Assembly: GCF_036967205.1 (NCBI RefSeq)
Contig: NZ_CP146022.1
Coordinates: 6,572,001 to 6,636,000, forward strand
DNA: 64,000 bases
From: Streptomyces sp. Q6
Lineage (GTDB): Bacteria; Actinomycetota; Actinomycetes; Streptomycetales; Streptomycetaceae
Direction of reading: 5' to 3'
Each line of letters opens with the position of its first letter. Within the stretch, counting starts at the first letter, position 1. The notes beneath the pieces are model-generated. The model ran no database searches. It was not told where the DNA came from and was given only the letters and a program-made list of their open reading frames with translations. The position numbers and the translations under genes are program-made. This document shows, in pieces, positions 371 to 17,782 of the stretch.

Positions 371-536
371 GCCTCGGTGTCCTCTCCAGCTGATGGCTCG
401 GCGCATGCGGCGGCGAGCCGGGTGACGGCGTTGGGGGAGGGCACGCGTGGGGGGAATGAGTCGGGCCCCGTGCGACCGGCCGAGCGGGTCGCGATGTTTC
501 CGAACTATAGACCGAATCCGAGGGGCGTCGATGGAG

Positions 537-555
537 GATGGTTTACCTAACCATC
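537..555. promoter_or_regulatory. Perfect 7-bp inverted repeat, candidate operator
   Basis: GATGGTT at 537-543 and AACCATC at 549-555 are perfect reverse complements around TACCT. Flanking GAGG and CCTC extend the symmetry imperfectly. It lies in the middle of a divergent intergenic region and has no T-run, so a protein-binding operator is more likely than a terminator. The cognate regulator is unknown. Confidence 0.35.
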
Positions 556-613
556 ACCTCTCGTTAAGTCAAGTTGACCTTCCCTGAGCCCTTTACGTCA
601 TTTGTGACTGCTG

Positions 614-643
614 TTGACAGAAGTGTGAGGGGTTGGTGACTAT
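614..643 (+). promoter_or_regulatory. Possible promoter of the Stealth operon
   Basis: TTGACA at 614-619 is a perfect -35 hexamer. The best partner I see is GACTAT at 638-643 with an 18-base spacer, which matches the -10 consensus only in part. It points toward the Stealth genes. The hexamer match is seen; promoter function is inference. Confidence 0.3.
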
Positions 644-647
644 GTGC

Positions 648-672
648 CGGGCCTTTGAATCTTAAAGGGCCG
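648..672. promoter_or_regulatory. 9-bp inverted repeat in the operon leader
   Basis: CGGGCCTTT (648-656) and AAAGGGCCG (664-672) are reverse complements with a single mismatch around a 7-base loop. It lies just downstream of the possible promoter at 614-643, so it could be an operator at the transcription start or a hairpin in the leader RNA. Confidence 0.3.
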
Positions 673-796
673 TTAAGTGTGTGAGCCGGTGAATGAACAC
701 CGGTGTGCAAGTGGTCGCGGTTCGAGCCGGGGGGCACGAGGCCGAGCGATCACTGGGGCTCGTCATCGGCCTGTCGGCCGGGCGAGGAGAAGGAGG

Positions 797-841
797 GTGG
801 CAGTGCTGTCTGCGCAGGCCCCTGAAGGGCAGCGAACGTGA
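797..841 (+). CDS. Candidate 14-residue upstream peptide coupled to the first Stealth gene
   Basis: GTG at 797 opens a 14-codon frame reading VAVLSAQAPEGQRT that ends in TGA at 839-841. It overlaps the GTG start of the Stealth gene (838-840) as GTGA, the same coupling seen between genes 2 and 3 and between genes 3 and 4 of this operon. It is preceded by a purine-rich stretch at 786-796 (GGAGAAGGAGG), the strongest ribosome-binding signal near the operon start but touching the GTG. The Stealth gene itself has only GAAGGG at 824-829. Translation of this peptide would drive the downstream gene. It may be chance. Confidence 0.3.
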   Translation: MAVLSAQAPEGQRT

Positions 842-2472
842 CGACGGTTTCCGAACCGGCGCTCCGCCAAGCGACCGACGGATCGGGTCGGCCGTGGCCC
901 GCCACCGCCGGCGGAGCACGCCCGACGCCCTCCCACGCCTCGACGGCACCCGCCCAGGCCGAACGCGAGGACGTCTATGTCGAGCCCGGCCTGACCCCGC
1001 TCGCCGCGCGCGAGGCCAACCGGCGCGCCCTCACCGCCCTGCTCGACGTCGTCGGCGTGGCGTACTTCGCCGTCCGCGGCACCTCCGACCACGGCACCGT
1101 GATCGGGGTCGCGGAGCACGACCGGGAGCGGGTGCTCGGCGCCCTCTTCCGCGGTCTGGGGCAGTACCCGGGGCACCTGAGTGTGATCGACCCGGACGCG
1201 CTGCGGGCCGCCAAGCCCGTCTCCTCGCGCGACCCGCGGGCCTGGCGCGAGGTGAACTCCGCCCGGATCGTCCAGGTCAGCTGGTACCGCACCGACCCCG
1301 GACGGCACCTGCTGCTCGGTCACGAGTACGGCTGCGCCATCGAGTTCTGGCAGCCGCAGGGCACCTACCTCGTCGCGCCCCGCGCCAACCGGGCGACCTG
1401 GGCCGTGCTGGCGAACAGTGCGAACGTGCTCGGCGCCGCTCGCCTGTTCAGCCGCTTCGTGTCGGACTGGACCGATCAGCACCTGGCGCCCGCGCTCGCC
1501 ACCCGGCCCGAGTTCCTGGTCAACTGCGCCGACGACATCGCCTTCCCCGTCGACGCCGTCTACACCTGGGTCGACGGCAACGACCCGGCGTGGAAGCAGC
1601 GCAAGGCCCAGGCGAAGGGCGAGGTCTACCACGCGGAGTCGGCCAGCGACGCGCGCTTCATCAGCCGCGACGAACTGCGCTACTCGGTGCGCTCGTTGCA
1701 CCTGTTCGCGCCGTGGATACGCAACATCTACATCGTCACCGACGACCAGGTGCCGGAGTGGCTCCGCGAGGACCTGCCCGGACTGCGTATCGCCAGCCAC
1801 CGGGAGATCTTCCGCAACCCCGCCGACCTGCCGACATTCAACTCGCACTCCATCGAGAGCCAGCTCCACCACATCGAAGGGCTCGCCGAGCACTTCCTCT
1901 ACTTCAACGACGACATGTTCATGGGCCGACCGGTGGCCCCGCACGCCTTCTTCACCCCGTCCGGCACCGCCCGCTACTTCCCGTCGCGCAACCGCATCCC
2001 CCAGGGCCCGGTCGCCGAGTCCGACACACCCGTCGACGCGGCGTGCAAGAACAACCGCGCCCTGCTGCGCGAGCGCTTCGGGCGGGTCATCACGCAGCCC
2101 ATGGAGCACATCCCGTACGCGCTGCGCCGTACGGCGATGGAAGAGGCCGAGCGCGACTTCCCGGAAGCCTGGGCACGGACCTCGGCCAGCCGGTTCCGGG
2201 CCATGACGGACCTGTCACCGACCTCGTCCTTCGCGCTCTACTACGCGGCCCTCACCGGGCGGGCCCAGCCCGGGTCGATGCCGTTCACGTATCTACAGCT
2301 CGCGGTCCCCGACCTCGCCGACCGCCTGCAACGGCTGCTGGACGGCAGAGACCAGGACTCGTTCTGCCTCAACGACGCCTTCTCCACACCCGAGGACATC
2401 GAGGCGCAGCAGGAACTCCTGGACGGCTTCCTCACCTCCTACTTCCCCACCCCCAGCCCCTACGAGCGATGA
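838..2472 (+). CDS. Stealth-family sugar-1-phosphate transferase (first copy)
   Basis: The 544-residue protein has all four conserved Stealth regions: YTWVDGNDPAW (242-252, metal/nucleotide site), RDELRYSVRSLHLFAPW with IYIVTDD, FNSHSIES (334-341) followed by EHFLYFNDDMFMGRP, and FCLND (509-513) near the C-terminus. Stealth proteins transfer a hexose-1-phosphate or GlcNAc-1-phosphate from a UDP-sugar to a glycan, making phosphodiester-linked polysaccharides, and are homologous to the animal lysosomal-enzyme GlcNAc-1-phosphotransferase. The N-terminal 230 residues resemble those of the two following genes. There is no signal peptide, so it acts in the cytoplasm. The GTG start is chosen because the Stealth reading begins soon after it and GAAGGG lies 8 nt upstream. 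Donor and acceptor cannot be read from sequence. Confidence 0.92.
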   Translation: MTTVSEPALRQATDGSGRPWPATAGGARPTPSHASTAPAQAEREDVYVEPGLTPLAAREANRRALTALLDVVGVAYFAVRGTSDHGTVIGVAEHDRERVLGALFRGLGQYPGHLSVIDPDALRAAKPVSSRDPRAWREVNSARIVQVSWYRTDPGRHLLLGHEYGCAIEFWQPQGTYLVAPRANRATWAVLANSANVLGAARLFSRFVSDWTDQHLAPALATRPEFLVNCADDIAFPVDAVYTWVDGNDPAWKQRKAQAKGEVYHAESASDARFISRDELRYSVRSLHLFAPWIRNIYIVTDDQVPEWLREDLPGLRIASHREIFRNPADLPTFNSHSIESQLHHIEGLAEHFLYFNDDMFMGRPVAPHAFFTPSGTARYFPSRNRIPQGPVAESDTPVDAACKNNRALLRERFGRVITQPMEHIPYALRRTAMEEAERDFPEAWARTSASRFRAMTDLSPTSSFALYYAALTGRAQPGSMPFTYLQLAVPDLADRLQRLLDGRDQDSFCLNDAFSTPEDIEAQQELLDGFLTSYFPTPSPYER

Positions 2473-2487
2473 ACCGGAGTTCATGAC

Positions 2488-4101
2488 GTGGCAGATCAGA
2501 CGTCGTTGAGCTCCGCGGCCCACGTCTACCAGCGACTCGTCCCGCAGCCGGTGCGTTCCGTGGCGAAGACCACGGTGCCCGGACGCGTCCGACGCAAGGT
2601 CAAGCGGTCCCTCGCGCAGACCCTCAGCCGACGCGAAGCACGCCTGCACCGGCGTGCCCTGCGCCGTGTCCGCAAAGCCGAGCTGGGCGGTTCCGAGCGC
2701 CGTACGACGGCACCGGACGGTCGCGTCGGACACGTGCACACCGGCCTCACCTTCGACCTCGCCCGTCGGCTCGACCACGAACTCGTCACCCAGGCCCTGG
2801 ACGCGGCGGACATCCCCTGGTTCGCCGTCCCCGCCCTCGACGACCGCAGGATCGTGCTGGCCGTCGAGCAGCGCGACAAGGGCGCGGTGCGCCGCGCCCT
2901 GCGTGCGCTCCTCGAGGAGCACACCGGTTACGTGGTATCCGTATCGCCCGCCAACAGCGACACGCAGAACACCCCCGGCAGCCATGTGAAGGCGTGGAAG
3001 CACTTCGGCAAGGCGCGGGTGATCCGCCTCAACTGGCTGCGCACCGATCCCACCGAGAACCTGTGGACCGGCGAGGACCAGGGCGTCGAGATCGAGTTCT
3101 GGACGGTCAACACCGACCTGCCCCAGGAACGGCTGATCGGTCCCCGCCCCAACCGGGTCCAGCGGTCCGTGCCCCGCGACGCCCCGGGCATCGAGATCGG
3201 GCTCGACCGGCTCTCCGGATACTGCGACATCGACGGTGACATGGAGCCGACGATCACGCTGGAGGACTTCGACATACCGCGCCTGGAGGAGATCACGTTC
3301 CCCGTGGACGCGGTCCTCCTCTGGCAGCACGCCACCCCCTGGGGCGAAGAACTGCTGCGCGCGGCCCTGCGCTCGCTGCACCAGTACGCGCCCTGGATCG
3401 ACGTGGTCCACGTCCTCGCGCAGGCGCCCGTGCCCCCGTGGCTGAGCCCGGACGCGCGGCTCAGCATCGTGCCGGCCGCGCCGGGTGCCGAGTGGTTCCT
3501 GCATCAACTGCCCGACATCGCCGACAACTTCCTCCTGCTGCGCCCCGGCGCACTGCTCGGCCGACCGGTGCGGCCGTTCGACTACTTCACCCCCCACGGC
3601 GGTACCCGCCCGCGCCGCGGCCGGTGGAGCGCCGAGGAGTCCTTCGCTCCATGGACGCACGCCGCCTACTCGGCTACCGGGCGTGTCGTCGCACACGGCT
3701 ACGCCGAAGGCCCGCAGCCCTACAGTTGCGCGGCCCTGAGTCGTTTCACGGGAACCGGAACGAGTCCTGTGCAGGTCTTCGACGGCCAAGGCGTCACCGC
3801 CGTACCCGGCACCCACCCGATGGACGGCCTGATCCATCACGTCGGACACATGGCCGGACTGGCCGACCCGTCCGGCGAGGCCTCGGTGACCCTGCACGCC
3901 GCCCTGCCCGGCCTGAACCAGCACCTGGAACGGCTTCTCGTCCGCAGGGACACCCAACAGATGCAGTTCTACGGGCTGGGCGACCGCCGGGCCCAGAGCC
4001 AAGGCGGTACCAAGGCCGTCATCCGCTTTCTCCGTCGCTACTACCCGGTGCCCAGCGTCTTTGAGGTCGAGGGTCCCAAGGAGCTGGACAAGCAGTCGTG
4101 A
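2488..4101 (+). CDS. Degenerate Stealth-like protein, probable pseudoenzyme
   Basis: This 537-residue protein has the same architecture as its two neighbours, including a related N-terminal half (EIEFWTVNTD and PRPNRVQ match their EFW...APRxNR segment). The catalytic regions are eroded. Where the others have YTWVDGND it has LLWQHAT (277-283) after FPVDAV. The RDELRYS segment is reduced to EELLRAALRSLHQYAPW. FNSHxIES is replaced by WFLHQLPDIADNFLLL, and the FCxND motif by FYGLGD. The family scaffold (ALLGRPVRPFDYFTP, PVPSVFE end) is kept and the frame is open throughout, so it is maintained rather than decaying. A structural or regulatory partner of the active copies is the simplest reading. 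It starts 15 nt after gene one and overlaps gene three by GTGA. Confidence 0.82.
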   Translation: MADQTSLSSAAHVYQRLVPQPVRSVAKTTVPGRVRRKVKRSLAQTLSRREARLHRRALRRVRKAELGGSERRTTAPDGRVGHVHTGLTFDLARRLDHELVTQALDAADIPWFAVPALDDRRIVLAVEQRDKGAVRRALRALLEEHTGYVVSVSPANSDTQNTPGSHVKAWKHFGKARVIRLNWLRTDPTENLWTGEDQGVEIEFWTVNTDLPQERLIGPRPNRVQRSVPRDAPGIEIGLDRLSGYCDIDGDMEPTITLEDFDIPRLEEITFPVDAVLLWQHATPWGEELLRAALRSLHQYAPWIDVVHVLAQAPVPPWLSPDARLSIVPAAPGAEWFLHQLPDIADNFLLLRPGALLGRPVRPFDYFTPHGGTRPRRGRWSAEESFAPWTHAAYSATGRVVAHGYAEGPQPYSCAALSRFTGTGTSPVQVFDGQGVTAVPGTHPMDGLIHHVGHMAGLADPSGEASVTLHAALPGLNQHLERLLVRRDTQQMQFYGLGDRRAQSQGGTKAVIRFLRRYYPVPSVFEVEGPKELDKQS

Positions 4102-5861
4102 GCATGGGCAATCCCGAGGCCTCCGCGGCAGTCGGGGCGTACAGATCCCTCGTCCCTGCAGGGCTGCGGCGTCGTATCGCGCGTCGCGTTCCGTTGCGTC
4201 TACGCGCGGCACTCAAGCATGTGCTGCGTCATCTTCACTCCATCACGCTGGGCGGCAGGCTGTTGCGGGCCGCTCGGGCGAAGCGGCGCTGGCCGCATCT
4301 GTTCCGCGCGCAGGAACGTCTCGCCGTGCTGTCCGGCCACGGGACGCAGATCGCGCTCGTGCGCCCCACGGTGTCGCCGCTCGGTCTGCGCGAGGCCAAC
4401 CTCGAACTCGTCGTCACCCTCCTCGAAGAGGCGGGCGTCGACTACTTCGCGATCCGCGGCAACTCCGACTTCCGGTCCTGCATCGCGGTGGCCGAAGCGG
4501 ACCGCGACCGGGTGGCCGCGGCGCTCGCCGGCTGCGCGGAGCGCGGGCCCGTCTACCTGACGGCCTGCCGGGGCGACGCCGCCGTCGGGCCCAAGGCCCT
4601 GTCCGGCTCACGGCGCGGCCGCCACCTGGTGCGGGAAGCGACGGTGCTCCGGGTCGGCATGGTGTGGAGCGACCCCGCGGGGTCGCTGGTCCTGGGGCTC
4701 GCCTACGGCTGCGACATCGAGTTCTGGCGGCCCGAGGAAGGGCGCCTCGTCGCGCCGCGCTCCAACCGGGTCACGGAGGACGTCCGTTTCGACGAGCCGC
4801 GCGTCACGGTGCCCGTCAGCCGGCTCACCGGCTTCGCCGCGCTGCACACCCGACGCACCCGCCTGGTGCGCACCATCGAGCCGTGCGCCGACGCGCTGCC
4901 CGAGGACGTGCGCTTCCCCGTCGACGTCGTCTACACCTGGGTCGACGGCAACGACCCCGACTGGCAGCGACGCCGGGCCGCGTACGGCCACGGCGGCTAC
5001 CACACGGAGTCCGCGAACGCCGCTCGCTACATCAGCCGTGACGAACTGCGCTACTCGCTACGCGCGTTGGAGCAGAACGCCCCCTGGGTGCGGCACGTCT
5101 ATGTGGTGACGGACCGGCAGCGGCCCGCCTGGCTCACCGACCGCCACCCGCGGATCACGGTCGTCGACCACTCCGAGATATTCGACGACCCTGAGGCGCT
5201 GCCCACGTTCAACTCCCACGCGATCGAAAGCCGCCTGCACCACATCAAGGGCCTCTCCGAGCACTTCCTCTACTTCAACGACGACATGTTCCTGGGCCGG
5301 CCGGTCACCCCGAGCGACTTCTTCCTGTCGAACGGCATGACCCGTACGTTCCTGTCGCCGTCCCAAGTGCCGCGGTGGGAGCGGACGTTGGGTGACCGCC
5401 CGGTGGACGCCGCCGGCAAGAACAACCGGCGTCTGCTGCTCGACAACTTCGGCTCGGCCATCGTCCAGAAGATCCGGCACGCTCCCTACGCCCTGCGGCG
5501 CAGCGTGCTGGAGGAGATCGAGCAGCAGTTCGCCGAGGCGCACCGGCAGACCTCCCTGAGCCGGTTCCGCAGCGCGGACGACATCTCCATCCCGTCCTCG
5601 CTCTACCACTACTACGCGTACTTCACCGGCCGCGCCGTGCCCTCCGAGATCACCTTCGCCTACCTCGACCTGGCCAAGCCCGAGATCCAGCGTCGGCTCG
5701 GGATCCTGCTGGCCCGCCGGGACCGATCGGCGTTCTGCATCAACGACACGCTCTCCGACGGCCGCGACGTGGCCCGGCAGACGGCGATGCTGAGCCGGTT
5801 CCTCAAGGCCTATTACCCCGTGCCCAGCCCGTTCGAGCGCAAGGAGGGCGAGGTCCGGTGA
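4098..5861 (+). CDS. Stealth-family sugar-1-phosphate transferase (third copy)
   Basis: The 587-residue protein has complete Stealth motifs: YTWVDGNDPDW (279-289), RDELRYSLRALEQNAPW, VYVVTDRQ, FNSHAIES (371-378), EHFLYFNDDMFLGRP and FCINDT (546-551). It differs from the first copy in a longer basic N-terminus (about residues 20-75, rich in R and K) that may hold it at the membrane face. The expected reaction is transfer of a sugar-1-phosphate to a growing glycan, giving a phosphodiester bond. The GTG start at 4098 overlaps the upstream stop, and its own stop overlaps the glycosyltransferase start at 5858, so the three genes are almost certainly cotranslated. Two active copies suggest either two linkages in one repeat unit or an alternating polymer. 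Confidence 0.92.
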   Translation: MSMGNPEASAAVGAYRSLVPAGLRRRIARRVPLRLRAALKHVLRHLHSITLGGRLLRAARAKRRWPHLFRAQERLAVLSGHGTQIALVRPTVSPLGLREANLELVVTLLEEAGVDYFAIRGNSDFRSCIAVAEADRDRVAAALAGCAERGPVYLTACRGDAAVGPKALSGSRRGRHLVREATVLRVGMVWSDPAGSLVLGLAYGCDIEFWRPEEGRLVAPRSNRVTEDVRFDEPRVTVPVSRLTGFAALHTRRTRLVRTIEPCADALPEDVRFPVDVVYTWVDGNDPDWQRRRAAYGHGGYHTESANAARYISRDELRYSLRALEQNAPWVRHVYVVTDRQRPAWLTDRHPRITVVDHSEIFDDPEALPTFNSHAIESRLHHIKGLSEHFLYFNDDMFLGRPVTPSDFFLSNGMTRTFLSPSQVPRWERTLGDRPVDAAGKNNRRLLLDNFGSAIVQKIRHAPYALRRSVLEEIEQQFAEAHRQTSLSRFRSADDISIPSSLYHYYAYFTGRAVPSEITFAYLDLAKPEIQRRLGILLARRDRSAFCINDTLSDGRDVARQTAMLSRFLKAYYPVPSPFERKEGEVR

Positions 5862-7954
5862 AGATCTCCTTCCTCATCAACAACATCTACGGCATCGGCG
5901 GCACCAACCGCACGGTCATCAACCTCGCCGAGGCCCTCGCCGTCCACCACGAGGTGGAGATCGTCTCGGTCTTCCGGCGCGCGAACACCACCAAGTTCGA
6001 GATCTCCCCCCGCATCACCGTCCGCGCCCTCGTCGACCTGCGCCCCGGCTCCGCGGACAAGGACGCCGCGGGCAGCGGCGAACCGAGCGAAGTCGTGCCG
6101 CGCCAGGAGGAGTTCTACGCGCAGTACAGCAAGTTCACCGACGCACGCATCATCCGCGACCTGGAGCGCACCGACGCCGACGTGGTGGTCGGCACCCGCC
6201 CCAGCCTCAATCTGTTCGTCGCCGCGTACACGCGTGACGGTGCCCTGCGCGTCGCCCAGGAGCACATGACGCACCTGGGCATCCCGGCCGCGGTGCGGGC
6301 GGAGATGGCCCGCGTGTATCCGCGGCTCGACGCCATCACCACGGTCACCGAGGCCGACGCCCGGTCGTTCATGGAGAACACGCCGATCCCCGGCATCCCC
6401 GTCGTCGGCATCCCCAACAGCGTGCCCCAGCCGTCCGTCCCGCCGTCCGACTGCACGCACAAGGTCGTCGTCAGCGCGGGCCGCATGCACCACATCAAGC
6501 GGTACGACCTGCTCATCCGCGCCTTCGGAATGCTGGCCGACGAGTTTCCCGACTGGCAGTTGCGCATCTACGGCGACGGCGGCGAAGCCGGAAAGCTCCG
6601 CGCCCTGGTCTCAGAACTCGGCCTGGCGGGGCGGGCGTTGCTCATGGGCGGCTTCTCGCCGATCGAGTCGGAGTGGGCCAAGGGTTCCATCGCGGCGGTC
6701 ACCTCCAGCGCGGAGTCCTTCGGTATGACCTTGGTGGAGGCCATGCGCTGCGGGCTGCCCGTGGTCTCCACCGACTGCCCCGTCGGCCCGCGGGAGATCC
6801 TGCACCCCGGTGAGGACGGCTTCCTCGTGCCCAACGGCGAGGTCGAGGGCATCGCCTGGGGGCTGCGCCGCCTCATGGCCGACGAAGTCCTGCGGCGCAC
6901 CATGGGCGCGGCCGCCCTGCGCAACGGGGCCGCGTACGACCCGGCCGCCGTGGCCGGCCGCTACGTCGCCCTGTTCGAGGAGGCCGCCCGCAACCGGGCC
7001 GCGGCCCAGCGCGGGTACCGTGCCCCGGCACCCGCCCGCCGCACCGGTGGCGACCTGCTCACCGTGCCGCCGGTGTCGCTGAGCGCGGCCACCGTCGACG
7101 TCACCACCGACGACACGGGCTGGCTGCGCTTCTCGGCCGACGGCCCGGCGGAGGGCCGCCGCCGCTGGCAGTTCGTGCTGCGCCACAAGCCCGCGGACGG
7201 TCAGCGCCGTCCCGATCTCCCCTTGCGCACGTCCCGCAAGGACCTGGCCAACGGCGGCACCCAGTACACCGCCGCACTCACCCCCGGCGCGTTCGACGAC
7301 CTCGGCGACGGCCGCTGGCAGGTGATGATGAGCGCCCCCAAGACTTCCCCCGTGCACATGAAGGCAGGCGTTCAGGACACCCGTGCACTCATCGACGCAC
7401 GCACCCGCCTGATCTCCCGCCCGCCGACCGGGGCGATCGTCTGGAACCTGCCGTACGCCCAGCCCAACGGGCGGCTCATGCTCCGCACCGTCCTGCGCGA
7501 GGACCACGCCGAGTGCACCGGCGTCGAGGTGGCGGACGACACGATCACGCTGCGCGGTGTGCTGTGCGGCGGCCGCCGGATCGAGCCGGGCGCCCAGTTC
7601 ATCGTCAGCCGTCGCGGCCGGCACGCGCACAACTTCGCCGTCCACGTCCAGATCGTGGGGCGGCAGTCGTTCCGCGCCGAGGTACCGCTGCGCCACGTCG
7701 TGGACCACCGGCTCGAACGATGGGAGGACTGGGACTGGTGGCTGCAACCCGACCCGTACGACCGCCGGAAGGTACGCGTCTGCCATCTCCTCGAGGACTT
7801 TCACGACGTCAAGGCCGCGTACGTCTACCCGTCGGTTCCCCTGGCCGGGGCCGAGGCGTCCGAGTTCGCAGCGATCCACCCGGCGCGCCCGGTATGGGTG
7901 CGCCCCTACTGCTCTGCCTCCGGCGCCATGGCCATGAACGTGGTGGACCGATGA
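5858..7954 (+). CDS. GT4-family glycosyltransferase with C-terminal accessory domain
   Basis: Residues 1-385 form a GT-B, GT4-type retaining glycosyltransferase. The start ISFLINNIYGIGGTNRT is the N-terminal donor-domain glycine loop, KVVVSAGRMHHIKRYDLLI is the usual opening of the second Rossmann domain, and E286-SFGMTLV-E294 is the E-x7-E nucleotide-sugar motif, followed by GLPVVSTDCPVGP. Residues about 395-698 are a separate region of predicted beta strands, rich in W and R, that I cannot assign to a named domain; comparable tails occur on actinobacterial teichoic-acid and capsule glycosyltransferases. It has no signal peptide. The position directly after the Stealth genes with a GTGA overlap makes it the enzyme that adds ordinary glycosidic sugars to the phosphoglycan. 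Confidence 0.88.
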   Translation: MKISFLINNIYGIGGTNRTVINLAEALAVHHEVEIVSVFRRANTTKFEISPRITVRALVDLRPGSADKDAAGSGEPSEVVPRQEEFYAQYSKFTDARIIRDLERTDADVVVGTRPSLNLFVAAYTRDGALRVAQEHMTHLGIPAAVRAEMARVYPRLDAITTVTEADARSFMENTPIPGIPVVGIPNSVPQPSVPPSDCTHKVVVSAGRMHHIKRYDLLIRAFGMLADEFPDWQLRIYGDGGEAGKLRALVSELGLAGRALLMGGFSPIESEWAKGSIAAVTSSAESFGMTLVEAMRCGLPVVSTDCPVGPREILHPGEDGFLVPNGEVEGIAWGLRRLMADEVLRRTMGAAALRNGAAYDPAAVAGRYVALFEEAARNRAAAQRGYRAPAPARRTGGDLLTVPPVSLSAATVDVTTDDTGWLRFSADGPAEGRRRWQFVLRHKPADGQRRPDLPLRTSRKDLANGGTQYTAALTPGAFDDLGDGRWQVMMSAPKTSPVHMKAGVQDTRALIDARTRLISRPPTGAIVWNLPYAQPNGRLMLRTVLREDHAECTGVEVADDTITLRGVLCGGRRIEPGAQFIVSRRGRHAHNFAVHVQIVGRQSFRAEVPLRHVVDHRLERWEDWDWWLQPDPYDRRKVRVCHLLEDFHDVKAAYVYPSVPLAGAEASEFAAIHPARPVWVRPYCSASGAMAMNVVDR

Positions 7955-8020
7955 GCCCCTCGGCGGCTGCCGCCGACCCGCTCCACCGACTGTGACCGAC
8001 CCGACGGCCGAGGAGGCCCG

Positions 8021-10000
8021 ATGACCGTCCCGCAGACCACGCCGACCCGCTCGGTCCTGCACATCATCGCCCACCAGGACGACGATCTGTACTTCATGAA
8101 CCCCGACCTGGTGCGTTCCTTGCAGGACGGCGACGACGTCACCACGGTGATCGTCACCGCTGGTGAGGGCGACGGTGTCAATGTCGACACCAACGACCCC
8201 CAACGCAAGGCCGTCGCGCCGGACTTCGCCCGCTACAGCACCGAGCGTGGCTGCGGCCTGCGCTCCGCGTACGCCCGGATGGCCACCGGGGACCGCGACC
8301 GTCCCTGGCAGCGCGAGCCGGTGGAGCTCGTCCCCGGCTTCGTCGTGGAACGGTTCACCCTGGTCGGCCACCCGTCCGTGCGCCTGTACTTCTTCCAGCT
8401 CCACATGGGCGCGCCCACCGAGAGGGGCACCCGCACCCGGCTGCACGAACTGTGGGAGGGGGCGATGCGCGCCCAGGCCACGCTCCCCGTGCACGGTGCG
8501 GAGGTGACTCAGGTCCAGCACATCACGCGCGAGCAGGTGATCGGCGGGCTCACGGCGTTGCTCGGCCGCATCCGCCCCACCACGGTCCGCACCATGGACC
8601 CCGACCCGGAACACGACGGCGGCGTCCAGGAGTTCGTCTGCTCCGACCACGTCGACCACACCACCACCACGCAGTTCGCGCTCGCGGCCCTCACCCGGCA
8701 CCGCGAGGCGGGTCACGCCCCGGTCGTCGAGCACTACCGGAGCTACGCCAACCGCTTCTGGGGCTACAACCTCGACTCGGACGCGGTGACCGAGAAAGCC
8801 GAGTACCTGGCGACGTACAGCGGTCTCGACGCCCCGGCCGCCTGCCCGCACGGCACCTGCCACACGTGTGGCGACCGGCAGTTGGGGCCGAACCCGTTCC
8901 GCAGTACGCACATGATGAGCGCCGCCTACCGGTACTCGCCGACCACCGACTGGCTGCGTCTGGGCCCGGGCGGACGGCTCAACGCGTTCGGCGTGCTGGG
9001 CGGCCGACTCGCCTTCTGGACGGAGACCGGACCGGCGAGCGGCGAGTGGAAGGGCCCGTTCGTGCTCGGCGACGGCTGGGTGGCGCCCACCCTGGCCGTC
9101 ACCGGTCTGCCCGGCGGTCCCGCCGAACTCGTGGCGCTGCGCCGCCAGCACGTCGTCGGCGGCGGGATCACCGTCGACGTCGTGCACACGGTGCAGGACC
9201 CCGACGGCAACGGGTTCAGCGGCTGGCAGACCCTGGAGAACCCCGACTGGTCACACGGCGACGGGCGTCGCCAGCGCGAGCTGGGTGTGCCGTCGGCGGC
9301 CGTTGACGCGGCCGGCCGGATGTATGTCTTCGTCCGCGACTTCGATCAGGGCATCAGCATGCGTCGCCGCGACACCGACGGCACGTGGGCGCCTTGGGAG
9401 AGCGTCGGCGGCAGTTTCGTCCAGGACGCGGGCACGGCCCTGACCACCGAGCGCGGCACCGTGGAGCTGTACGTGCCGGGCAAGAACACCGTCTGGCGCT
9501 GGCACCAGACCGAACCCGGTGGCCCGGTCCTGCTGGACGACACCCTCAAGACGGGACGGCCGGCCACCGGCGGTCTGTCGGCGGTCGACTCCGGCGACGG
9601 CCGCACCTGCCTCTACTTCCGGGAGGCCGGCACACAGCAGGTCATGGCCTACCGGCAGCACGCCGACGGCCGCTGGCCGGGTTCCGGAGCAGGGCTCGGA
9701 GGCCACGGGGGCACCGGCGCCGTGGCCGCGCTGTGGGCGCCCGAACGAGGAGCGCGCGAGGCTTTCCTGGCCCACCGCGGCAGCCGTGGCCGCCTGGTCG
9801 TGTCGATGCCCGACCGCGACAAGAACGTCTCCGGCACGCGGTGGCGCGAATCGGGCGAGATGTTCACCAACGCTCCGTCCATGGCGTACGACGCGTCGGG
9901 CGCGCTGGTCGTCGCGGTCATCGGTCTGGACGGCCGCCTGCGGATGCGACGCCAGCTGGTGCCCCGGGTGGGGAGTCCGCTCGGGCCCTGGAGTTCGTGA
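8021..10000 (+). CDS. PIG-L (LmbE-like) deacetylase with C-terminal beta-propeller-like repeats
   Basis: Residues 1-250 are a PIG-L zinc deacetylase: the metal-binding AHPDDE motif appears as AHQDDD (17-22), and the distal pair as H210-VD-H213. PIG-L enzymes remove N-acetyl groups from GlcNAc-containing substrates (mycothiol, GPI, antibiotics, polysaccharides). A cysteine/histidine cluster, CPHGTCHTCG, at about 273-282 could bind another metal. Residues about 300-659 contain repeated strands with GRLxxF and GRMYVF-type turns, resembling lectin-like or BNR-like propellers. No signal peptide is visible, so a cytoplasmic role on the nascent polymer or its precursor is likely unless export is non-classical. 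ATG 8021 follows GAGGAGG by 5 nt. Confidence 0.85.
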   Translation: MTVPQTTPTRSVLHIIAHQDDDLYFMNPDLVRSLQDGDDVTTVIVTAGEGDGVNVDTNDPQRKAVAPDFARYSTERGCGLRSAYARMATGDRDRPWQREPVELVPGFVVERFTLVGHPSVRLYFFQLHMGAPTERGTRTRLHELWEGAMRAQATLPVHGAEVTQVQHITREQVIGGLTALLGRIRPTTVRTMDPDPEHDGGVQEFVCSDHVDHTTTTQFALAALTRHREAGHAPVVEHYRSYANRFWGYNLDSDAVTEKAEYLATYSGLDAPAACPHGTCHTCGDRQLGPNPFRSTHMMSAAYRYSPTTDWLRLGPGGRLNAFGVLGGRLAFWTETGPASGEWKGPFVLGDGWVAPTLAVTGLPGGPAELVALRRQHVVGGGITVDVVHTVQDPDGNGFSGWQTLENPDWSHGDGRRQRELGVPSAAVDAAGRMYVFVRDFDQGISMRRRDTDGTWAPWESVGGSFVQDAGTALTTERGTVELYVPGKNTVWRWHQTEPGGPVLLDDTLKTGRPATGGLSAVDSGDGRTCLYFREAGTQQVMAYRQHADGRWPGSGAGLGGHGGTGAVAALWAPERGAREAFLAHRGSRGRLVVSMPDRDKNVSGTRWRESGEMFTNAPSMAYDASGALVVAVIGLDGRLRMRRQLVPRVGSPLGPWSS

Positions 10001-10033
10001 CACCGGCGAGCGTCTGGCGTTCATGAACCCCCT

Positions 10034-10966
10034 ATGCGCACCATGTCCCCCTTGGCGATGTGCTCGATGACGTGCTCCATGACGTGCTCGATGACTGGGG
10101 GGACATTGTCGCGTGGACGATGGGTGGGCTGCGGCGCTGCCGTGGCCACCGTGCTTGCGGTGATCCTCGGGCTGTTCGTCGCGTTTCCCGACGGTCAGGG
10201 TTCGGCGGCCGCGCAGCGGCGGACGGTCCGTGTCCTCCACTACAACCTGTGCGGCGCGGCGGCGGTGTGTCCGTGGAATGCAGGAGGAAGCGGCTCCGGC
10301 ACATCCATCGCGCGCCTCGTGAAGAGCGCCGCGCGGTTCGAGCCCGACGTGATCACCGTCAACGAGATCTGCCTGACGCAGTACGCCGAGCTCAAACGGA
10401 AGCTCGCCAGGGCGGGTTGGACCATGGACGGCACCTACGCCTCGTCCCAGGACAACGTGCCGGCCTGCGGCAGTTCCGGCCGTTTCGGAACGGCGGTGCT
10501 CAGCCGCGGCGACGTCCCTGACGGGCAGCAGGACTACCGCCGCTTCGCGCACACCGGCGGCGAGACCTACACCAACGGCGGCCGTACGGTCCTGGTCCGC
10601 AGGGGCCTGCTGTGCGCGCACACCACAGTGCGGGGCGCGCGCCTGTTCGCGTGCACGGCGCACACGTACTCCAAGGCCCCCGAGCAGCTGCGGGAGATCA
10701 GGGACTGGACGGCGGGGTTCCCTCGCGGCGTGCCCGTCGTCCTCGGCGGAGATCTCAACCTGCCGCCCGACGCGCCCGCGCTGTCCCTGCTCACGAACCG
10801 CTTCGTCGAGGCGGACCACGCGGACGGCGAACACACCGTCGACGGGCGGAAGATCGACTATCTCTTTGCCGGGAAGCGTCACGTCCGGTCGTCCGATGCC
10901 GACGCGGTGCGGTATCCGGAGTCCGATCACGCGCTGCTGAAGGGATGGTTCGGGCTCACGTTCTGA
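10034..10966 (+). CDS. Exported endonuclease/exonuclease/phosphatase-fold protein
   Basis: After a hydrophobic segment (WVGCGAAVATVLAVILGLFV, about residues 31-50) that should be a signal peptide or anchor, the protein has the EEP fold signature. VRVLHYNLC is the first strand, VNEIC carries the metal-binding Glu, GGDLNLPPD the Asp-x-Asn pair and YPESDHALL the terminal Asp-His. EEP enzymes hydrolyse phosphodiester or phosphomonoester bonds, from DNA to sphingomyelin and inositol phosphates. An exported member beside Stealth transferases may act on envelope phosphodiesters, which is inference. The start is ambiguous: ATGs at 10034, 10058, 10067, 10079 and 10091 are all in frame, several inside a 12-bp repeat. 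The first is given here. Confidence 0.8.
   Translation: MRTMSPLAMCSMTCSMTCSMTGGTLSRGRWVGCGAAVATVLAVILGLFVAFPDGQGSAAAQRRTVRVLHYNLCGAAAVCPWNAGGSGSGTSIARLVKSAARFEPDVITVNEICLTQYAELKRKLARAGWTMDGTYASSQDNVPACGSSGRFGTAVLSRGDVPDGQQDYRRFAHTGGETYTNGGRTVLVRRGLLCAHTTVRGARLFACTAHTYSKAPEQLREIRDWTAGFPRGVPVVLGGDLNLPPDAPALSLLTNRFVEADHADGEHTVDGRKIDYLFAGKRHVRSSDADAVRYPESDHALLKGWFGLTF
10061..10096 (+). repeat. Three 12-bp tandem repeats inside the 5' end of the EEP gene
   Basis: TGCTCGATGACG, TGCTCCATGACG and TGCTCGATGACT lie head to tail. Each unit holds one in-frame ATG and encodes C-S-M-T. Because the unit is 12 bp, copy-number change keeps the frame and only alters the number of possible starts and the length of the N-terminus before the signal peptide. 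Confidence 0.85.
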
Positions 10967-11059
10967 GGGTTGCTCGACCGGATCAGCGGCATCCTCTCGT
11001 GATCATTTCGCAACGGCCACGTGTACAACGTCTTTTGGTCGGCGCAAGTCTGACCGGCC

Positions 11060-12631
11060 GTGAGACTTTCCATGGCCCGAGGGGTGCTGTTCCCCCTCGC
11101 TCTGACCGCTGCCGCCGTGGGTGCCTTCGCAGGCCCCGCCGGCGCGCAGGACACGCCCCTGTCCGTCACCGGACTCCCCTCGCAGATCGCCGTCACACCC
11201 GTGACCAAGGACGGCGCGAAGCAGCCCCGGCAGCTCACGCTCTCGGTCGAAGGCGGAGCACAGGCACCGAAGGAGTACGTGCTCCGTCTCGACCTCGGCG
11301 GCCTCAAGGGGGTCGCGGACGTCGACGCGAAGCCGTGCGAGGTGGTGGCCGAACAGGCCACGTGCCGGATCAAGGTGACCGATCCTGACCGCGTACCGGG
11401 TGTGTCCCTGAAACTGACCGCAGCGAGCGGCAGCAAGGCGGGGGACTCCGGCGCTCTCCGGGTGGCGGGCGAGGCGGACGGGCGTGAACTGAAGGCGTCC
11501 GACGCCACGGTGCAGATCGGCGGGGCGAACCTGGTGACCGCGGGCCCGCGGTTCACGAACAGGCCGAGCGTGGGGGACAAGCTGCCGCTGCCCGTCTCCT
11601 TCCGCAACGTGGGCAGCGCACCGGCCTCGGGCGTGCTGATGGTGTTCCGCTCCACCGAGGGCGGCAAGCCCGTGGGGCGCTTCGCCAACTGCGAGTACAG
11701 CGAGCGCAGTTCCTTCGCGGAGAAGCACTACTGGCTGTGCGCCTTCGACGTCGATGTGCCGGCCGGGGCCGAGTTCGCGCTGCCCGAGGAGGCGGCGGTC
11801 GAGGTCGGCGCCGCGGCGTTCCACGACATGGTGCAGGTCTCGGTGTTCCCCGACGCTCCCGGAATGCGGGACTACCTGCGTGCGGGGTACGCGTACGAGC
11901 AGGGCAGCGGACCCCGGTTGAAGCTGCGCGCGCCGCAGGAGGTGCGGCAGTACGGCAACGACAACACGTGGGACTCCACCTTCTACGTGACCAACGCCGC
12001 GGACCTCTCCGTCACCGGGGCCCAGGTCAGCGGCAAGGTGGGGGACGAGGTGACGGCCGAGCTCGGACTGCGCAACCACGGCCCGGCCTGGCTCGGGGAC
12101 GTCCAGGACCCGACGGAATTCGCCTCGCTCCAGGCCGAGTTCCCGGACGGCGTCACCGTCGTCGACGTGCCCAAGGGCTGCTTCCGTGGCACGCCGGGCA
12201 CCTACTCCTGCTCGGTCGGCCCGCTGGCCTCCGACGCCGAGCTCTCCTTCGCGTTCAAGCTGAGGATGACGAAGCCGCTGAAGGAGACCCAGGGGAAGGT
12301 CCGGGTGCTCCAGGCCGAATGGTCCGCGTACGACAAGAACGGGACCAACGACGCCGCGCACATCACCTTCACCGCCTCGTCCGGCGAGAGTCCCAGTGCC
12401 TCCACCGGATCCAGCGCCACGCCCGGCACAGGAGAAGCGACAGGGGAGGCCTCGCCCGGCACCGCGTCCCCGTCGGCCTCTGGCACGTCCGCCACCCGTC
12501 CGCAGGACGGTGACCTGGCATCGACCGGCGCCGGCCCGGCCCTGTGGTGCGCGGCCCTTGCCGCCCTCCTCATCGGTGGCGGCGTCGCCGTCCGCGCAGC
12601 GACGCGCAAGCGCCGGACGCAGCACTCATGA
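11060..12631 (+). CDS. LAxTG-anchored surface protein
   Basis: The 523-residue protein starts with a signal peptide (VLFPLALTAAAVGAFAGPAGA). A long beta-rich ectodomain follows, with two regions around 170-260 and 330-440 resembling bacterial Ig-like or CARDB/DUF11 folds (PVSFRNVGSAP, ELGLRNHGPAW). Next is a Ser/Thr/Pro/Gly-rich wall-spanning linker (about 445-480), the sorting signal LASTG at 486-490, a hydrophobic segment and a basic tail ending KRRTQHS. LAxTG is the motif used by class E sortases in high-GC actinobacteria, so it is covalently fixed to peptidoglycan. GTG 11060 is used; ATG 11072 is also possible. Its stop overlaps the start of the phosphodiester glycosidase gene, so the two products are likely made together. 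Ligand or function is unknown. Confidence 0.85.
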   Translation: MRLSMARGVLFPLALTAAAVGAFAGPAGAQDTPLSVTGLPSQIAVTPVTKDGAKQPRQLTLSVEGGAQAPKEYVLRLDLGGLKGVADVDAKPCEVVAEQATCRIKVTDPDRVPGVSLKLTAASGSKAGDSGALRVAGEADGRELKASDATVQIGGANLVTAGPRFTNRPSVGDKLPLPVSFRNVGSAPASGVLMVFRSTEGGKPVGRFANCEYSERSSFAEKHYWLCAFDVDVPAGAEFALPEEAAVEVGAAAFHDMVQVSVFPDAPGMRDYLRAGYAYEQGSGPRLKLRAPQEVRQYGNDNTWDSTFYVTNAADLSVTGAQVSGKVGDEVTAELGLRNHGPAWLGDVQDPTEFASLQAEFPDGVTVVDVPKGCFRGTPGTYSCSVGPLASDAELSFAFKLRMTKPLKETQGKVRVLQAEWSAYDKNGTNDAAHITFTASSGESPSASTGSSATPGTGEATGEASPGTASPSASGTSATRPQDGDLASTGAGPALWCAALAALLIGGGVAVRAATRKRRTQHS

Positions 12632-14283
12632 GGATGCCCCGCGGAGCCCGGCGCCGGCTCACCCACCTCCTCGCCGTCGTCCCGCTCCTCGCGGCCGTCG
12701 TGCTGCTGCCGCAGAGCCCGGCCGGCGTCGCACGCGCGGCCGACGGTGGCCGGATGCCTCTCGGCCCCGCCGACCTGGCCACTCAGGCCGGGGACGTCCG
12801 TACCCTCGCCACCGGGGTCACGTATCAGACGTACACGCAGGGCACCGCCTCCGACCGCTGGACCGTCTGGGCCCAGCGGGGCGACGGGACGGAGACCTTC
12901 GGCAGCAAGACGGCCGCCGAGGCCTTCGCGGCGCAGCTCGCCGCCGAGGGCTTCAGTGGTGCCCTAGACACTTTCACCGCCCCGGCCTCGGCCGACACCG
13001 CCGGCGGGGTGGTCGGCTACGGCGTCCGCGTGGGCTCCTTCGCGCCCGATCTGAAGGCATCGGCGGACCGACTCGCGGGCTGGTTGGAGACCGCGGGCTT
13101 CAGAGCCCGCGTCATCTACACGGCCCAGGACGGCAATCCCAGCAGTGGCCCCTGGAAGGTCCATGTCGTTCGTGTCGCGCCGACCGCCGACGTGACGTTC
13201 AAGGCGGTGCACGGGACCGACGTGTCCACGTCCGAGACCGTGCGGAGCATGGCCACGGCGAGTGGTGCCCTCGCTGCCGTCAACGGCACCGAGTTTGATA
13301 TCCATACGTTCCTCGGGTCGACGTACGAAGGCGTTCCCCAGGGCCTCTACGTCCAGGACAACGCCCTTCTCGGAGCTGCCAACAACGGCCGCACGGCCCT
13401 CCTCCTCGAAGGTGCGGGTTCCCGGGTCCGAGTCGCCGAAGTCACGTCCACCGTGCAGGTCACGGCGCCCAACGGGGACGTACGGGTTCTCGACGGCGTC
13501 AACCGGGTCCCCGGCCGGATCCTCGGCTGCGGCGGCGTGGGTGGCGACCGGGTCTCCATGAACGGCGTGCAGACGGAGACGGAACGCCCCTGGCGCAACC
13601 AACTCTGCGGCGACGACAGCGAGATCGTCGTCTTCCGCCCCGAATGGGGAAGCACGACTCCCGCACCTACCGACGACGGGACCAACAGTGTCGACGTCGT
13701 CATGAACGGGAACTGGACCGTCCAGCTGATCCGACGGCCGGCGGGCGGTGCGATTCCGGCGGGCGGTCGCGTCCTCCAGGGCACCGGCGAGGGCGCCGAC
13801 TGGCTGCTGCAACACGCCCAGGTGGGCTCGGTGTTCAAGCCCGGTGCCTCGATCAAGGACGCCCAAGGCGGCTCCGTGACGAGTCCGACGCTCTCCGCCG
13901 TGGCAGGCGGCGGACCCGCTCTGGTGCGCGACGGCGAGATCTTCCTCAACACCAAGGCGAACGGTATGACGAACTTCGCGTACGGGCCCAACAACACGCT
14001 CGTACAGCGTCATCCGCGCACCATGGCAGGTGTCACGGCGTCCGGAGAGCTCCTCCTGGTCACCGTCGACGGCCGTGACCCGGCCACCAGCGTCGGGGTC
14101 ACCTGGCCGGAGGCAGCCGGGGTCATGAAGTGGCTGGGCGCCACCGACGCCGTCGGTCTCGGCAGCGGCGGCGACGCGACGATGGTCACCGGCGGCACGC
14201 TCGCCAACCGCCCGATGGACGACTGGGGTTCCCCGACCGAGCGGAAGGTCAGCACCGCGGTGGTGGTCGTCCCCAAGGAGTGA
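12628..14283 (+). CDS. Exported phosphodiester glycosidase (NAGPA / DUF2233 domain)
   Basis: ATG at 12628 overlaps the upstream TGA as ATGA and is followed by a signal peptide (LLAVVPLLAAVVLLPQSP, cleavage near ARA-ADGG). Residues about 60-170 look like a SPOR-type domain (two WTVWAQ/GVRVGSF halves), a fold that can bind denuded peptidoglycan. Residues about 200-551 match the phosphodiester glycosidase domain of the mammalian uncovering enzyme NAGPA: ASGALAAVNGTEFD, GRTALLLEGAG, then the hallmark LGSGGDATMV (about 511-520) and NRPMDDW...ERKVSTA at the end. NAGPA removes GlcNAc from GlcNAc-phospho-sugar diesters, the bond type Stealth enzymes make. Extracellular trimming of the locus product is therefore a reasonable hypothesis. 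The canonical DGGGS of the family is GSGGD here. Confidence 0.85.
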   Translation: MRMPRGARRRLTHLLAVVPLLAAVVLLPQSPAGVARAADGGRMPLGPADLATQAGDVRTLATGVTYQTYTQGTASDRWTVWAQRGDGTETFGSKTAAEAFAAQLAAEGFSGALDTFTAPASADTAGGVVGYGVRVGSFAPDLKASADRLAGWLETAGFRARVIYTAQDGNPSSGPWKVHVVRVAPTADVTFKAVHGTDVSTSETVRSMATASGALAAVNGTEFDIHTFLGSTYEGVPQGLYVQDNALLGAANNGRTALLLEGAGSRVRVAEVTSTVQVTAPNGDVRVLDGVNRVPGRILGCGGVGGDRVSMNGVQTETERPWRNQLCGDDSEIVVFRPEWGSTTPAPTDDGTNSVDVVMNGNWTVQLIRRPAGGAIPAGGRVLQGTGEGADWLLQHAQVGSVFKPGASIKDAQGGSVTSPTLSAVAGGGPALVRDGEIFLNTKANGMTNFAYGPNNTLVQRHPRTMAGVTASGELLLVTVDGRDPATSVGVTWPEAAGVMKWLGATDAVGLGSGGDATMVTGGTLANRPMDDWGSPTERKVSTAVVVVPKE

Positions 14284-14300
14284 GGGACAGCACGGATGCG

Positions 14301-14360: not shown

Positions 14361-16493
14361 TCAGGCGGGGACGGAAGCCACGCCGGCCTCCAGGAACCGC
14401 TTCCCGTTGACCCGCTCGCTCACGCCCTCCCGGTCCAGGTACGGCGTGATGCCGCCCAGGTGGAAGGGCCAGCCCGCGCCCGTGATCAGGCAGAGGTCGA
14501 TGTCCTGGGCCTCGGCGACGACGCCCTCGTCGAGCATGAGCCCGATCTCCTGGGCGACGGCGTCGAGGACGCGGTCGCGGACCTGCTCCTCGGTCAGGAC
14601 GACATCGCCCTGCTTGAGGAGGGCGGCGACCTCGGGGTCGAGCTCCGGCTTCCCGGAGTCGTACACGTAGAAGCCGCGCTTGCCCGCCTTGACGACGGCC
14701 GCGAGGTTCGGGGAGACCGTGAAGCGCTCCGGGAAGGCGCGGTTCAGGGTCTCCGAGACGTGCAGACCGATGGCCGGGCCGACCAGTTCGAGCAGGACCA
14801 GCGGCGACATCGGCAGGCCGAGCGGCTCGATGGCCTTCTCGGCGACCTCGACCGGCGTGCCCTCGTCGATGACGTTCTGGATCTCGCCCATGAAGCGGGT
14901 CAGGATGCGGTTCACGACGAACGCCGGGGCGTCCTTGGTGAGGACCGCGGTCTTCTTCAGCTTCTTGGCGACACCGAACGCCGTGGCCAGCGCCGCGTCG
15001 TCGGTCTGCTCGCCACGCACGATCTCCAGGAGCGGCAGGATCGCGACCGGGTTGAAGAAGTGGAAGCCGACGACCCGCTCGGGGTGCTTCAGCTTCGACG
15101 CCATCTCGGAGACCGAGAGGGACGAGGTGTTCGTGGCGAGGATGGCGTGCGCCGGGGCGACCGCCTCCACCTCCGCGAAGACCTGCTGCTTGACGCCGAT
15201 CTCCTCGAAGACGGCCTCGATGATGAAGTCGGCGTCGGCGAAGCCCTCGGCCTTGTCCAGGACACCGGAGACCAGGCCCTTGAGGCGGTTGGCCTTGTCC
15301 TGGTTGACGCGGCCCTTGCCGAGCAGCTTGTCGATCTCGGCGTGGACGTAGCCCACACCCTTGTCGACGCGCTCCTGGTCGATGTCGGTCAGGACGACCG
15401 GCACCTCCAGGCGGCGCAGGAAGAGCAGGGCGAGCTGCGAGGCCATCAGGCCCGCGCCCACGACGCCGACCTTGGTGACCGGACGCGCGAGCGACTTGTC
15501 CGGCGCACCGGCCGGACGCTTCGCGCGCTTCTGGACGAGGTTGAACGCGTAGATGCCCGCGCGCAGTTCGCCCCCCATGATCAGGTCGGCGAGGGCCTTG
15601 TCCTCGGCGTCGTAACCCGCCTGGAGGTCGCCGTCCTTGGACGCGGCGATGATGTCGAGCGCGCGGTACGCGGCCGGGGCGGCGCCGTGCACCTTGGAGT
15701 CGGCGATGAAGCGGCCGCGCGCGACGGCCTGGTCCCAGGCCTCGCCGCGGTCGACGTCAGGACGCTCGACCTTGACGTCGCCCGTGAGGACCTGCGCGGT
15801 CCACAGGAGTGACTGCTCCAGGAAGTCCGCGCCCTCGAACAGCGCGTCCGCGATGCCGAGTTCGTAGACCTGCTTGCCCTTGAGCTGCTTGTTCTGGTTC
15901 AGGCTGTTCTCGATGATCACCGAGACGGCCTTGTCCGCGCCGATGAGGTTCGGGAGCAGGGTGCAGCCGCCCCAGCCCGGCACCAGGCCGAGGAAGACCT
16001 CGGGCAGCGAGAACGCGGGCAGCGCCTTGGAGACCGTGCGGTACGTGCAGTGCAGGCCGACCTCGACGCCGCCGCCCATGGCGGCACCGTTGTAGTACGC
16101 GAAGGTCGGCACGGCCAGGCCCGCGAGGCGCTTGAAGACCTCGTGGCCGCCCTTGCCGATGGCGAGCGCGTCGTCGTGGTTCTTCAGCAGTTCGACGCCC
16201 TTGAGGTCGGCGCCGACCGCGAAGATGAACGGCTTGCCGGTGACACCGACACCGACGATGTCGCCGGCCGCGGCCTCCGCCTCCACCTGGTCGATGGCGA
16301 CGTTCAGGTTCGCGAGCGAACCCGGGCCGAAGGTCGTGGGCTTCGTGTGGTCGAAGCCGTTGTCCAGCGTGATGAGGGCGAACCGGCCCGCGCCGTGCGG
16401 GAGTTCGAGGTGGCGTACGTGCGCCGACGTGACGACCTCGCCCGGGAACAGCTCGGCCGCGCCCTTCAGGAGCTCAGCGGTGGTGGTGCTCAC
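14361..16493 (-). CDS. fadB: Fatty acid oxidation multifunctional enzyme: enoyl-CoA hydratase / 3-hydroxyacyl-CoA dehydrogenase
   Basis: The 710-residue protein has an N-terminal crotonase domain (residues about 15-210; FIFAVGADLKG and YYNGAAMGGGVEVGL form the oxyanion hole) and a C-terminal 3-hydroxyacyl-CoA dehydrogenase (about 330-700). The latter has a Rossmann loop KVGVVGAGLMASQLA, ILATNTSSLSV, ERVVGFHFFNPV with the catalytic His, and a duplicated helical C-terminal domain. It catalyses the hydration and NAD-dependent oxidation steps of beta-oxidation. The start is the GTG at 16493, which overlaps the thiolase stop as GTGA. Reading further upstream would run out of frame through fadA. 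Together with fadA it forms a two-gene operon transcribed leftward, ending at the hairpin at 14301-14341. Confidence 0.93.
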   Translation of the reverse strand: MSTTTAELLKGAAELFPGEVVTSAHVRHLELPHGAGRFALITLDNGFDHTKPTTFGPGSLANLNVAIDQVEAEAAAGDIVGVGVTGKPFIFAVGADLKGVELLKNHDDALAIGKGGHEVFKRLAGLAVPTFAYYNGAAMGGGVEVGLHCTYRTVSKALPAFSLPEVFLGLVPGWGGCTLLPNLIGADKAVSVIIENSLNQNKQLKGKQVYELGIADALFEGADFLEQSLLWTAQVLTGDVKVERPDVDRGEAWDQAVARGRFIADSKVHGAAPAAYRALDIIAASKDGDLQAGYDAEDKALADLIMGGELRAGIYAFNLVQKRAKRPAGAPDKSLARPVTKVGVVGAGLMASQLALLFLRRLEVPVVLTDIDQERVDKGVGYVHAEIDKLLGKGRVNQDKANRLKGLVSGVLDKAEGFADADFIIEAVFEEIGVKQQVFAEVEAVAPAHAILATNTSSLSVSEMASKLKHPERVVGFHFFNPVAILPLLEIVRGEQTDDAALATAFGVAKKLKKTAVLTKDAPAFVVNRILTRFMGEIQNVIDEGTPVEVAEKAIEPLGLPMSPLVLLELVGPAIGLHVSETLNRAFPERFTVSPNLAAVVKAGKRGFYVYDSGKPELDPEVAALLKQGDVVLTEEQVRDRVLDAVAQEIGLMLDEGVVAEAQDIDLCLITGAGWPFHLGGITPYLDREGVSERVNGKRFLEAGVASVPA

Positions 16494-17716: not shown

Positions 17717-17782
17717 GATGGCTCTCCTCCAAGATGCGGGACGGCACTGCCACGGCGCGCGACTGAGCGCGCGCTCACACCC

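Follow-up and report, generated by a model that had tools for sequence, protein, structure and literature searches.

Stealth enzymes catalyse hexosamine-1-phosphate transfer from UDP-sugars, as given in the cited parts of PMC10668966 and PMC11418123. In CpsY, by which Stealth catalytic positions are numbered here, residues E305, N322, D324 and R419 are required according to section 3.5 of PMC10668966. LytR-CpsA-Psr (LCP) proteins, in turn, join glycopolymers to peptidoglycan (PMC11481543 and PMC7831098, in the parts cited). Genes for both kinds of protein lie side by side in Streptomyces sp. Q6, in a stretch of 64,000 nucleotides (the window) that covers positions 6572001-6636000 of contig C1 (NZ_CP146022.1) of an 8.95 Mb genome in two contigs. 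The GC content of the window is 67-78% per kilobase. Eight genes in one orientation, at 838-14283, encode a Stealth protein (St1), an inactive-looking Stealth protein (St2), a third Stealth protein (St3), a GT4 glycosyltransferase, a PIG-L deacetylase, an exported EEP-fold enzyme, a protein with an LAxTG-type tail and a protein with SPOR and NAGPA domains. Reading frames and Pfam matches agree on this run and on two intact Stealth genes within it, as the first-pass annotation of the sequence had described.

The window probably contains an exchangeable wall-glycopolymer island in one of its allelic forms, in which St1, St3 and GT4 would make the polymer, St2 would be a non-catalytic subunit, an LCP protein would provide the linkage and the genes on the right would supply variable decorations. 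A more specific version is possible, if tentative: that the Stealth machine needs the dead subunit St2 to make a wall glycopolymer, that the exchange island housing it, between dxs and fadBA, is serotype-like, and that the exported NAGPA descendant has re-sited its carboxylates (in the LDGGGS motif D has become G and S has become D, and elsewhere an aromatic residue has become E) and catalyses a new reaction or acts as a lectin. The parallel with lysosomal targeting that had seemed striking at first is misleading, and three testable points take its place. The polymerases for wall polymers seem to be exchanged at a single chromosomal site in Streptomyces, like capsule loci; beside the live Stealth proteins a catalytically dead one has been retained; and one branch of NAGPA proteins appears to have a rebuilt signature motif. 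Titles and the beginnings of abstracts in the open-licence literature yielded nothing on a dead Stealth protein or on the dxs-fadBA island; the one exception is SCO6020, which appears in a table of S. coelicolor LCP proteins (PMC7831098, in the part cited).

St1 (P0001, 838..2472, plus strand) and St3 (P0003, 4098..5861, plus strand) both match Stealth CR1-CR4 over the Pfam cut-offs. St3 matches the CpsY structure in PDB (8j2n) with E=1.6e-75 and animal GNPTAB-type chains with E=5e-46 to 1e-36. The equivalents of E305, N322, D324 and R419 are intact in the window and in 33 other islands, that is, in 34/34 copies of St1 and 34/34 copies of St3. A search of the whole genome returned three Stealth matches, all in the run at 838-5861.

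St2 (P0002, 2488..4101, plus strand) has a weak Pfam match to CR2 (41.0 bits, cut-off 39.4) and a sub-threshold one to CR4, and its N-terminal region shares GxxIEFW and PRxNR with St1 and St3. All 34 copies lack the catalytic N, D and R and share the following changes. The NDD motif reads RPG, with R and G at the positions of N322 and D324 and with the replacement residues RPGA invariant; no arginine stands at the position of R419; and neither the VDG of CR1 nor the KNNR segment that precedes CR3 is present. The frame is open and full length in all 33 other islands (537-577 codons), and in 32 of these 33 its stop overlaps the alignment-placed start of St3 by 4 nt. The median dN/dS of St2 is 0.32 (maximum 0.69), compared to 0.22 for St1 and 0.26 for St3, by simple Nei-Gojobori counting with 558 of 561 pairs usable. 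Full length, residue conservation, low dN/dS and the kept overlap with St3 together suggest that St2 has retained a non-catalytic role, or at least its fold. It is apparently a maintained pseudoenzyme that has lost the catalytic N, D and R.

Stealth loci were collected by a scan with St3, from which the best 80 of 238 matches were kept, giving 70 named loci with flanks of up to 10 kb each, some of which end at contig edges. Thirty-two of them were picked for the presence of St1, St2 and St3, and these, the window and an orthologous island in genome G033 share the core St1-St2-St3-GT4 (type I). Excluded were three loci that have a close St3 and an incomplete Stealth trio: L061, which lacks St1 and St2, L066, which lies at a contig edge, and L084, which has an in-frame deletion. 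In this last locus, from Streptomyces sp. NBC_01549, the deletion fuses the frame of St3 to that of PIG-L and GT4 is gone (L084:10001-12211), and no match to St1, St2 or LCP was found there. Loci syntenic with the window, at 60-91% protein identity, are all from Streptomyces except for one from Actinacidiphila.

GT4, the LCP gene and an upstream propeller-type gene are each present in 32/32 type I loci, the LCP gene (PF03816) being divergent from St1 in every case, and fadB is reached in 30. The part after GT4 is variable, with PIG-L in 11 loci, the EEP gene in 9, a relative of the LASTG gene in one (L057) and a NAGPA gene in one. With Stealth, GT4 and LCP genes in 32/32 islands, the earlier suggestion of a phosphodiester-linked wall or surface glycan, synthesized inside the cell and accompanied by exported accessory proteins, still looks right as a prediction.

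The frame around the core, made of dxs, a permease gene, propeller genes, the LCP gene and fadBA, is constant, whereas the core varies between islands. In a genus sample of 61 genomes, in which Stealth and NAGPA coordinates were compared and some assemblies are fragmented, fadB was found at 78-96% identity in 60/60 genomes other than that of the window. G059 has a fadB 96% identical to that of the window, and its fadBA flank matches at 92% DNA identity from window position 14299 rightwards, yet no DNA alignment longer than 150 bases was found between the LCP gene and 14299; its core is a GT2-TagF polymerase. The orthologous island of G033 aligns at 83% with window positions 711 to 9991, after which the next match is fadB; the EEP, LASTG and NAGPA genes are thus extra in the window. 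The other cores at the site comprise two Stealth genes, one as a GT4-Stealth fusion, plus PIG-L (type II; genomes G024 and G027; loci L166 and L167), two Stealth genes plus GT4 (type III; genome G053; loci L094, L105 and L168), a GT2-TagF core with NAGPA in eleven loci, and shorter GT2 types without NAGPA in G007 and G052. GT2-type polymerases with PF04464 were found in L139, L169 and L170; among the matches listed, the PF04464 rows were used for G007 and G052 only. Gene content, its conservation and the exchange of the core can be read directly from these genomes. Judging from the order of locus tags, SCO6020 may lie at this site too.

The polymer chemistry, the formation of a complex and the roles of the enzymes are what we infer. 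St1 and St3, together with GT4, would build a sugar-1-phosphate-linked polymer, or poly(glycosyl phosphate), in the cytoplasm, the Stealth enzymes adding hexose-1-phosphate from a UDP-sugar and GT4 a glycosidic sugar. That GT4 and Stealth share a product is supported by GT4-Stealth fusions, which occur in 14 of the 70 Stealth loci. St2, presumably coupled to St3 in translation, may be a subunit without catalytic activity whose task is to hold or position acceptor chains or the other Stealth proteins. The finished polymer would then be transferred to peptidoglycan by the divergent LCP enzyme. The PIG-L, EEP, LASTG and NAGPA proteins would be variable decorations at the right-hand end of the island, and the NAGPA protein would most likely bind or trim the polymer outside the cell, its phosphodiester-glycosidase site having been remodelled or lost.

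Several points weigh against this model. An acidic residue, Glu or Asp, is still found at the E305 position of St2 in 30/34 copies and the CR1 tryptophan is kept in 32/34, so that the active site is not wholly erased. St2 is separable from St3, because L061 has St3-GT4 with no St1, St2 or LCP gene in the 10 kb upstream, and no St2 match was found with the Stealth pairs of the type II and III islands. In addition, according to the part of PMC7831098 cited here, no severe phenotype was seen in S. coelicolor for the ten LCP homologs besides PdtA.

The last gene of the run encodes the SPOR-NAGPA protein P0008 (12628..14283, plus strand). The frame is open from 12544, and translation probably starts at the ATG at 12628 and not at the GTG at 12544. 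The start of the protein resembles a signal peptide, as judged by eye, and is followed by a SPOR region (21.5 bits, cut-off 21) and the NAGPA domain (PF09992, 93.5 bits, cut-off 25). It had been described as an exported NAGPA-domain glycosidase; export and domain are borne out as predictions, but the signature LDGGGS is altered to LGSGGD. Its closest relatives, in G004 (61% identical) and G015 (53%), read LGIGGD and LGSGGD, and the segment that is NG[ST][YF]F in many relatives is NG[ST]EF in all three. The further 36 distinct NAGPA proteins that were inspected (31, 4 and 1 from three sets) keep LDGGGS, as do three solved proteins aligned with P0008. The window protein and those of G004 and G015 form a group with a support of 1.00 in an unrooted tree, and this branch, judging from the alignments, has rebuilt its signature motif.

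NAGPA relatives were searched for in 246 genus genomes, giving 46 rows (45 besides the window's own). The surroundings, about 20 kb, were examined for 19 rows and for the third NAGPA gene of the window's own genome, which has three NAGPA matches; this makes 20 genes. Eleven are inside the island (G116, G070, G078, G171, G155, G059, G176, G206, G074, G019 and G098) and nine outside it (L137, L138, L152-L155 and L157-L159, with L159 lacking any marker match). Apart from the two closest relatives of the window protein there are 18 such genes, and 11/18 lie at the fadB end of the same site, with 40-49% identity to the window protein. The distance from the island NAGPA genes to fadB is 63-183 bases in six and 1.1-3.4 kb in five, and all 11 lie beside a GT2-TagF polymerase of teichoic-acid type (about 1,470 aligned residues) and a CDP-alcohol phosphotransferase. 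A weakly Asp2-like protein, below the Pfam cut-off, is also encoded in 6/11 GT2-TagF islands and partly in G007 and G052 (L146:7815-9500).

This constant company of the 11 island genes suggests that NAGPA-type proteins are accessories of an exchange site for teichoic-acid-type polymers and that the window copy is a divergent member that landed beside a Stealth allele, an explanation that we consider evenly balanced between right and wrong. It would sit well with the NAGPA domain matches of SPO1-kind phages of Bacillus subtilis (34-36% over about 90 residues). However, the 18 genes were picked by NAGPA similarity and 7/18 of them lie elsewhere, and the GT2-type islands of G007 and G052 have no NAGPA gene near fadB. 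The window protein, moreover, groups with the non-island proteins of G004 and G015; the split that sets these three and the non-island proteins apart from the island proteins has a support of 0.64. NAGPA matches were also returned by a search of plasmids (7 records) and of phages (11 records), and the plasmid records examined read LDGGGS in 4/4 cases. One Paenibacillus plasmid has a NAGPA gene followed by a GT2/GtrA gene (L163:1-1342).

It is rather unlikely that the NAGPA gene is a passenger with an unrelated function. NAGPA is rare in type I islands, and the closest relatives occur in other contexts (L137 and L138), in genomes without a Stealth match and with no island marker around the gene; yet the window copy occupies the same island end as the other island NAGPA genes and shares 4 nt at its start with the LASTG gene.

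The first-pass annotation had taken Stealth and NAGPA for consecutive steps of one bacterial pathway, in which the diesters made by Stealth would have their GlcNAc cap removed by NAGPA once outside. A co-oriented, exported NAGPA protein, encoded last in the run and with the same 4-nt overlap, is what such a pathway would call for, but it now seems quite improbable. In the genus sample, Stealth is found in 22/61 genomes (21 over the cut-off) and NAGPA in 55/61, and the two occur within 20 kb of each other in 1/61, the window's own. No such pairing was found in the near-complete Stealth genomes G007, G036, G047 and G055. A NAGPA profile search of the 70 named Stealth loci returned one, the type I island L037, whose NAGPA gene is a different one from that of the window: 32% identical, on the opposite side of St1, between the permease and a propeller gene. 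In a phylum sample of 246 genomes searched for both, Stealth is present in 8; among the 7 besides the window's, one has NAGPA (G423) and 0/7 have it within 20 kb, the genes of G423 lying at 4.29 Mb (NAGPA) and 0.14 Mb (Stealth) in a genome of 5.1 Mb. Absence from the island does not imply absence from the genome, since NAGPA occurs somewhere in 25 of the 31 searchable type I genomes (of 32). Across the 61 genomes, a comparison of Stealth islands with the presence of NAGPA near fadB gave 1/5 versus 2/56 (Fisher test, p=0.23), with counts made by eye and with fadB at a contig edge in G032 and G046, where cases may be hidden.

These counts (1/61, 1/70 and 0/7) lead us to reject a general Stealth-NAGPA association and show that the transferase and uncovering-enzyme genes are not kept together in these samples, genomic linkage and not biochemistry being what was compared. 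Within the 20 kb fixed beforehand, no co-occurrence beyond close relatives was found in these samples. The best NAGPA relatives in the Stealth-free G004 and G015, the altered LDGGGS motif and the lack of a counterpart in the G033 island for the 4.4 kb that carries EEP, LASTG and NAGPA count against the two-step pathway as well. The resemblance to the human two-step mannose-6-phosphate pathway looks coincidental, as NAGPA is rarely common to the relatives and its putative active-site motif is altered. Least credible is that the "degenerate" Stealth gene is a decaying pseudogene, for which speak the missing N, D, R and pre-CR3 segment of St2 and a dN/dS somewhat above that of its neighbours, and against which its open frames, invariant RPGA, purifying selection and kept St3 overlap in the further islands argue strongly.

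The remaining genes of the island frame these proteins. The 5' part of the LCP glycopolymer ligase gene is at 1..406 on the minus strand and runs about 730 bases beyond the left window edge (L004 15270-16406, PF03816 E=2e-47), and the divergent intergenic stretch between it and St1, according to the gene calls, is at 407..837. GT4, with a C-terminal extension, follows St3 at 5858..7954 (PF00534, E=5e-32), and PIG-L (PF02585) at 8021..10000, both on the plus strand; the C-terminal region of PIG-L we take to be propeller-like, as judged by eye. The accessory genes for the EEP enzyme (PF03372, Exo_endo_phos; 10034..10966) and the exported LASTG protein (11060..12631) are also on the plus strand. 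That the latter is sortase-anchored is suggested by its tail, in which LASTG, a hydrophobic stretch and RKRR can be recognized by eye, but the NCBIfam LAxTG models score under their cut-offs. The right-hand border is formed by fadB and fadA at 14361..17753 on the minus strand, where one open frame spans the stretch and fadA is at 16490-17716.

Neighbouring genes of the run do overlap by 4 nt, though at 3/7 junctions (St2/St3, St3/GT4 and LASTG/NAGPA) and not at many, as first described. Terminator-like matches in the run (3 seen, 3.6 expected) say nothing on whether it is split, being at chance level and all on the minus strand. The genes at 838-14283 do not constitute the whole unit that had been proposed, as the divergent LCP gene and two propeller-type genes adjoin them; left of the LCP gene follow, in order, the two propeller-type genes, a PMT_2 membrane protein gene, the permease gene and dxs. 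The two propeller-type proteins (L004:12585-15201) show homology to PIG-L in its C-terminal half, and a Pfam scan of one of them gave no match. They are possibly secreted glycan-binding parts.

Compared to CpsY (8j2n) and GNPTAB, St1 and St3 have the same CR1-CR4 and catalytic positions, but here there are three adjacent paralogs, one of them apparently dead, and a GT4 gene that appears translationally coupled. P0008 shares the PF09992 domain with the uncovering enzyme NAGPA and matches the bacterial exported protein 6ozd over nearly its whole length (E=6.2e-40); it differs from both in having LGSGGD for LDGGGS and Glu for the aromatic residue in the NG[ST][YF]F segment.

The polydiglycosylphosphate (PDP) system of Streptomyces, with its LCP ligase PdtA (SCO2578), likewise combines a phosphodiester wall polymer with an LCP ligase, and PDP is a minor component of the S. 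coelicolor wall, according to the cited part of PMC7831098. The likeness extends to the GT4-Stealth fusions in 14/70 loci and an Obg-like gene in 13/70. A second Streptomyces Stealth cluster, with a 946-residue GT4-Stealth fusion, lies by an Obg-like GTPase gene (L072:8157-15572); a 330-residue gene of this cluster has no Pfam match. Judging from locus order, the Obg-side cluster may be linked to PDP. The window differs from the PDP system in its genomic site, its separate GT4 and its extra dead Stealth protein. Finally, the capsule polymerases for poly(oligosaccharide phosphate) described in the cited part of PMC5974469 combine glycosyltransferase and hexose-phosphate transferase activities in a similar way, but these are Gram-negative systems, whereas the window has separate, apparently coupled genes and an LCP ligase.

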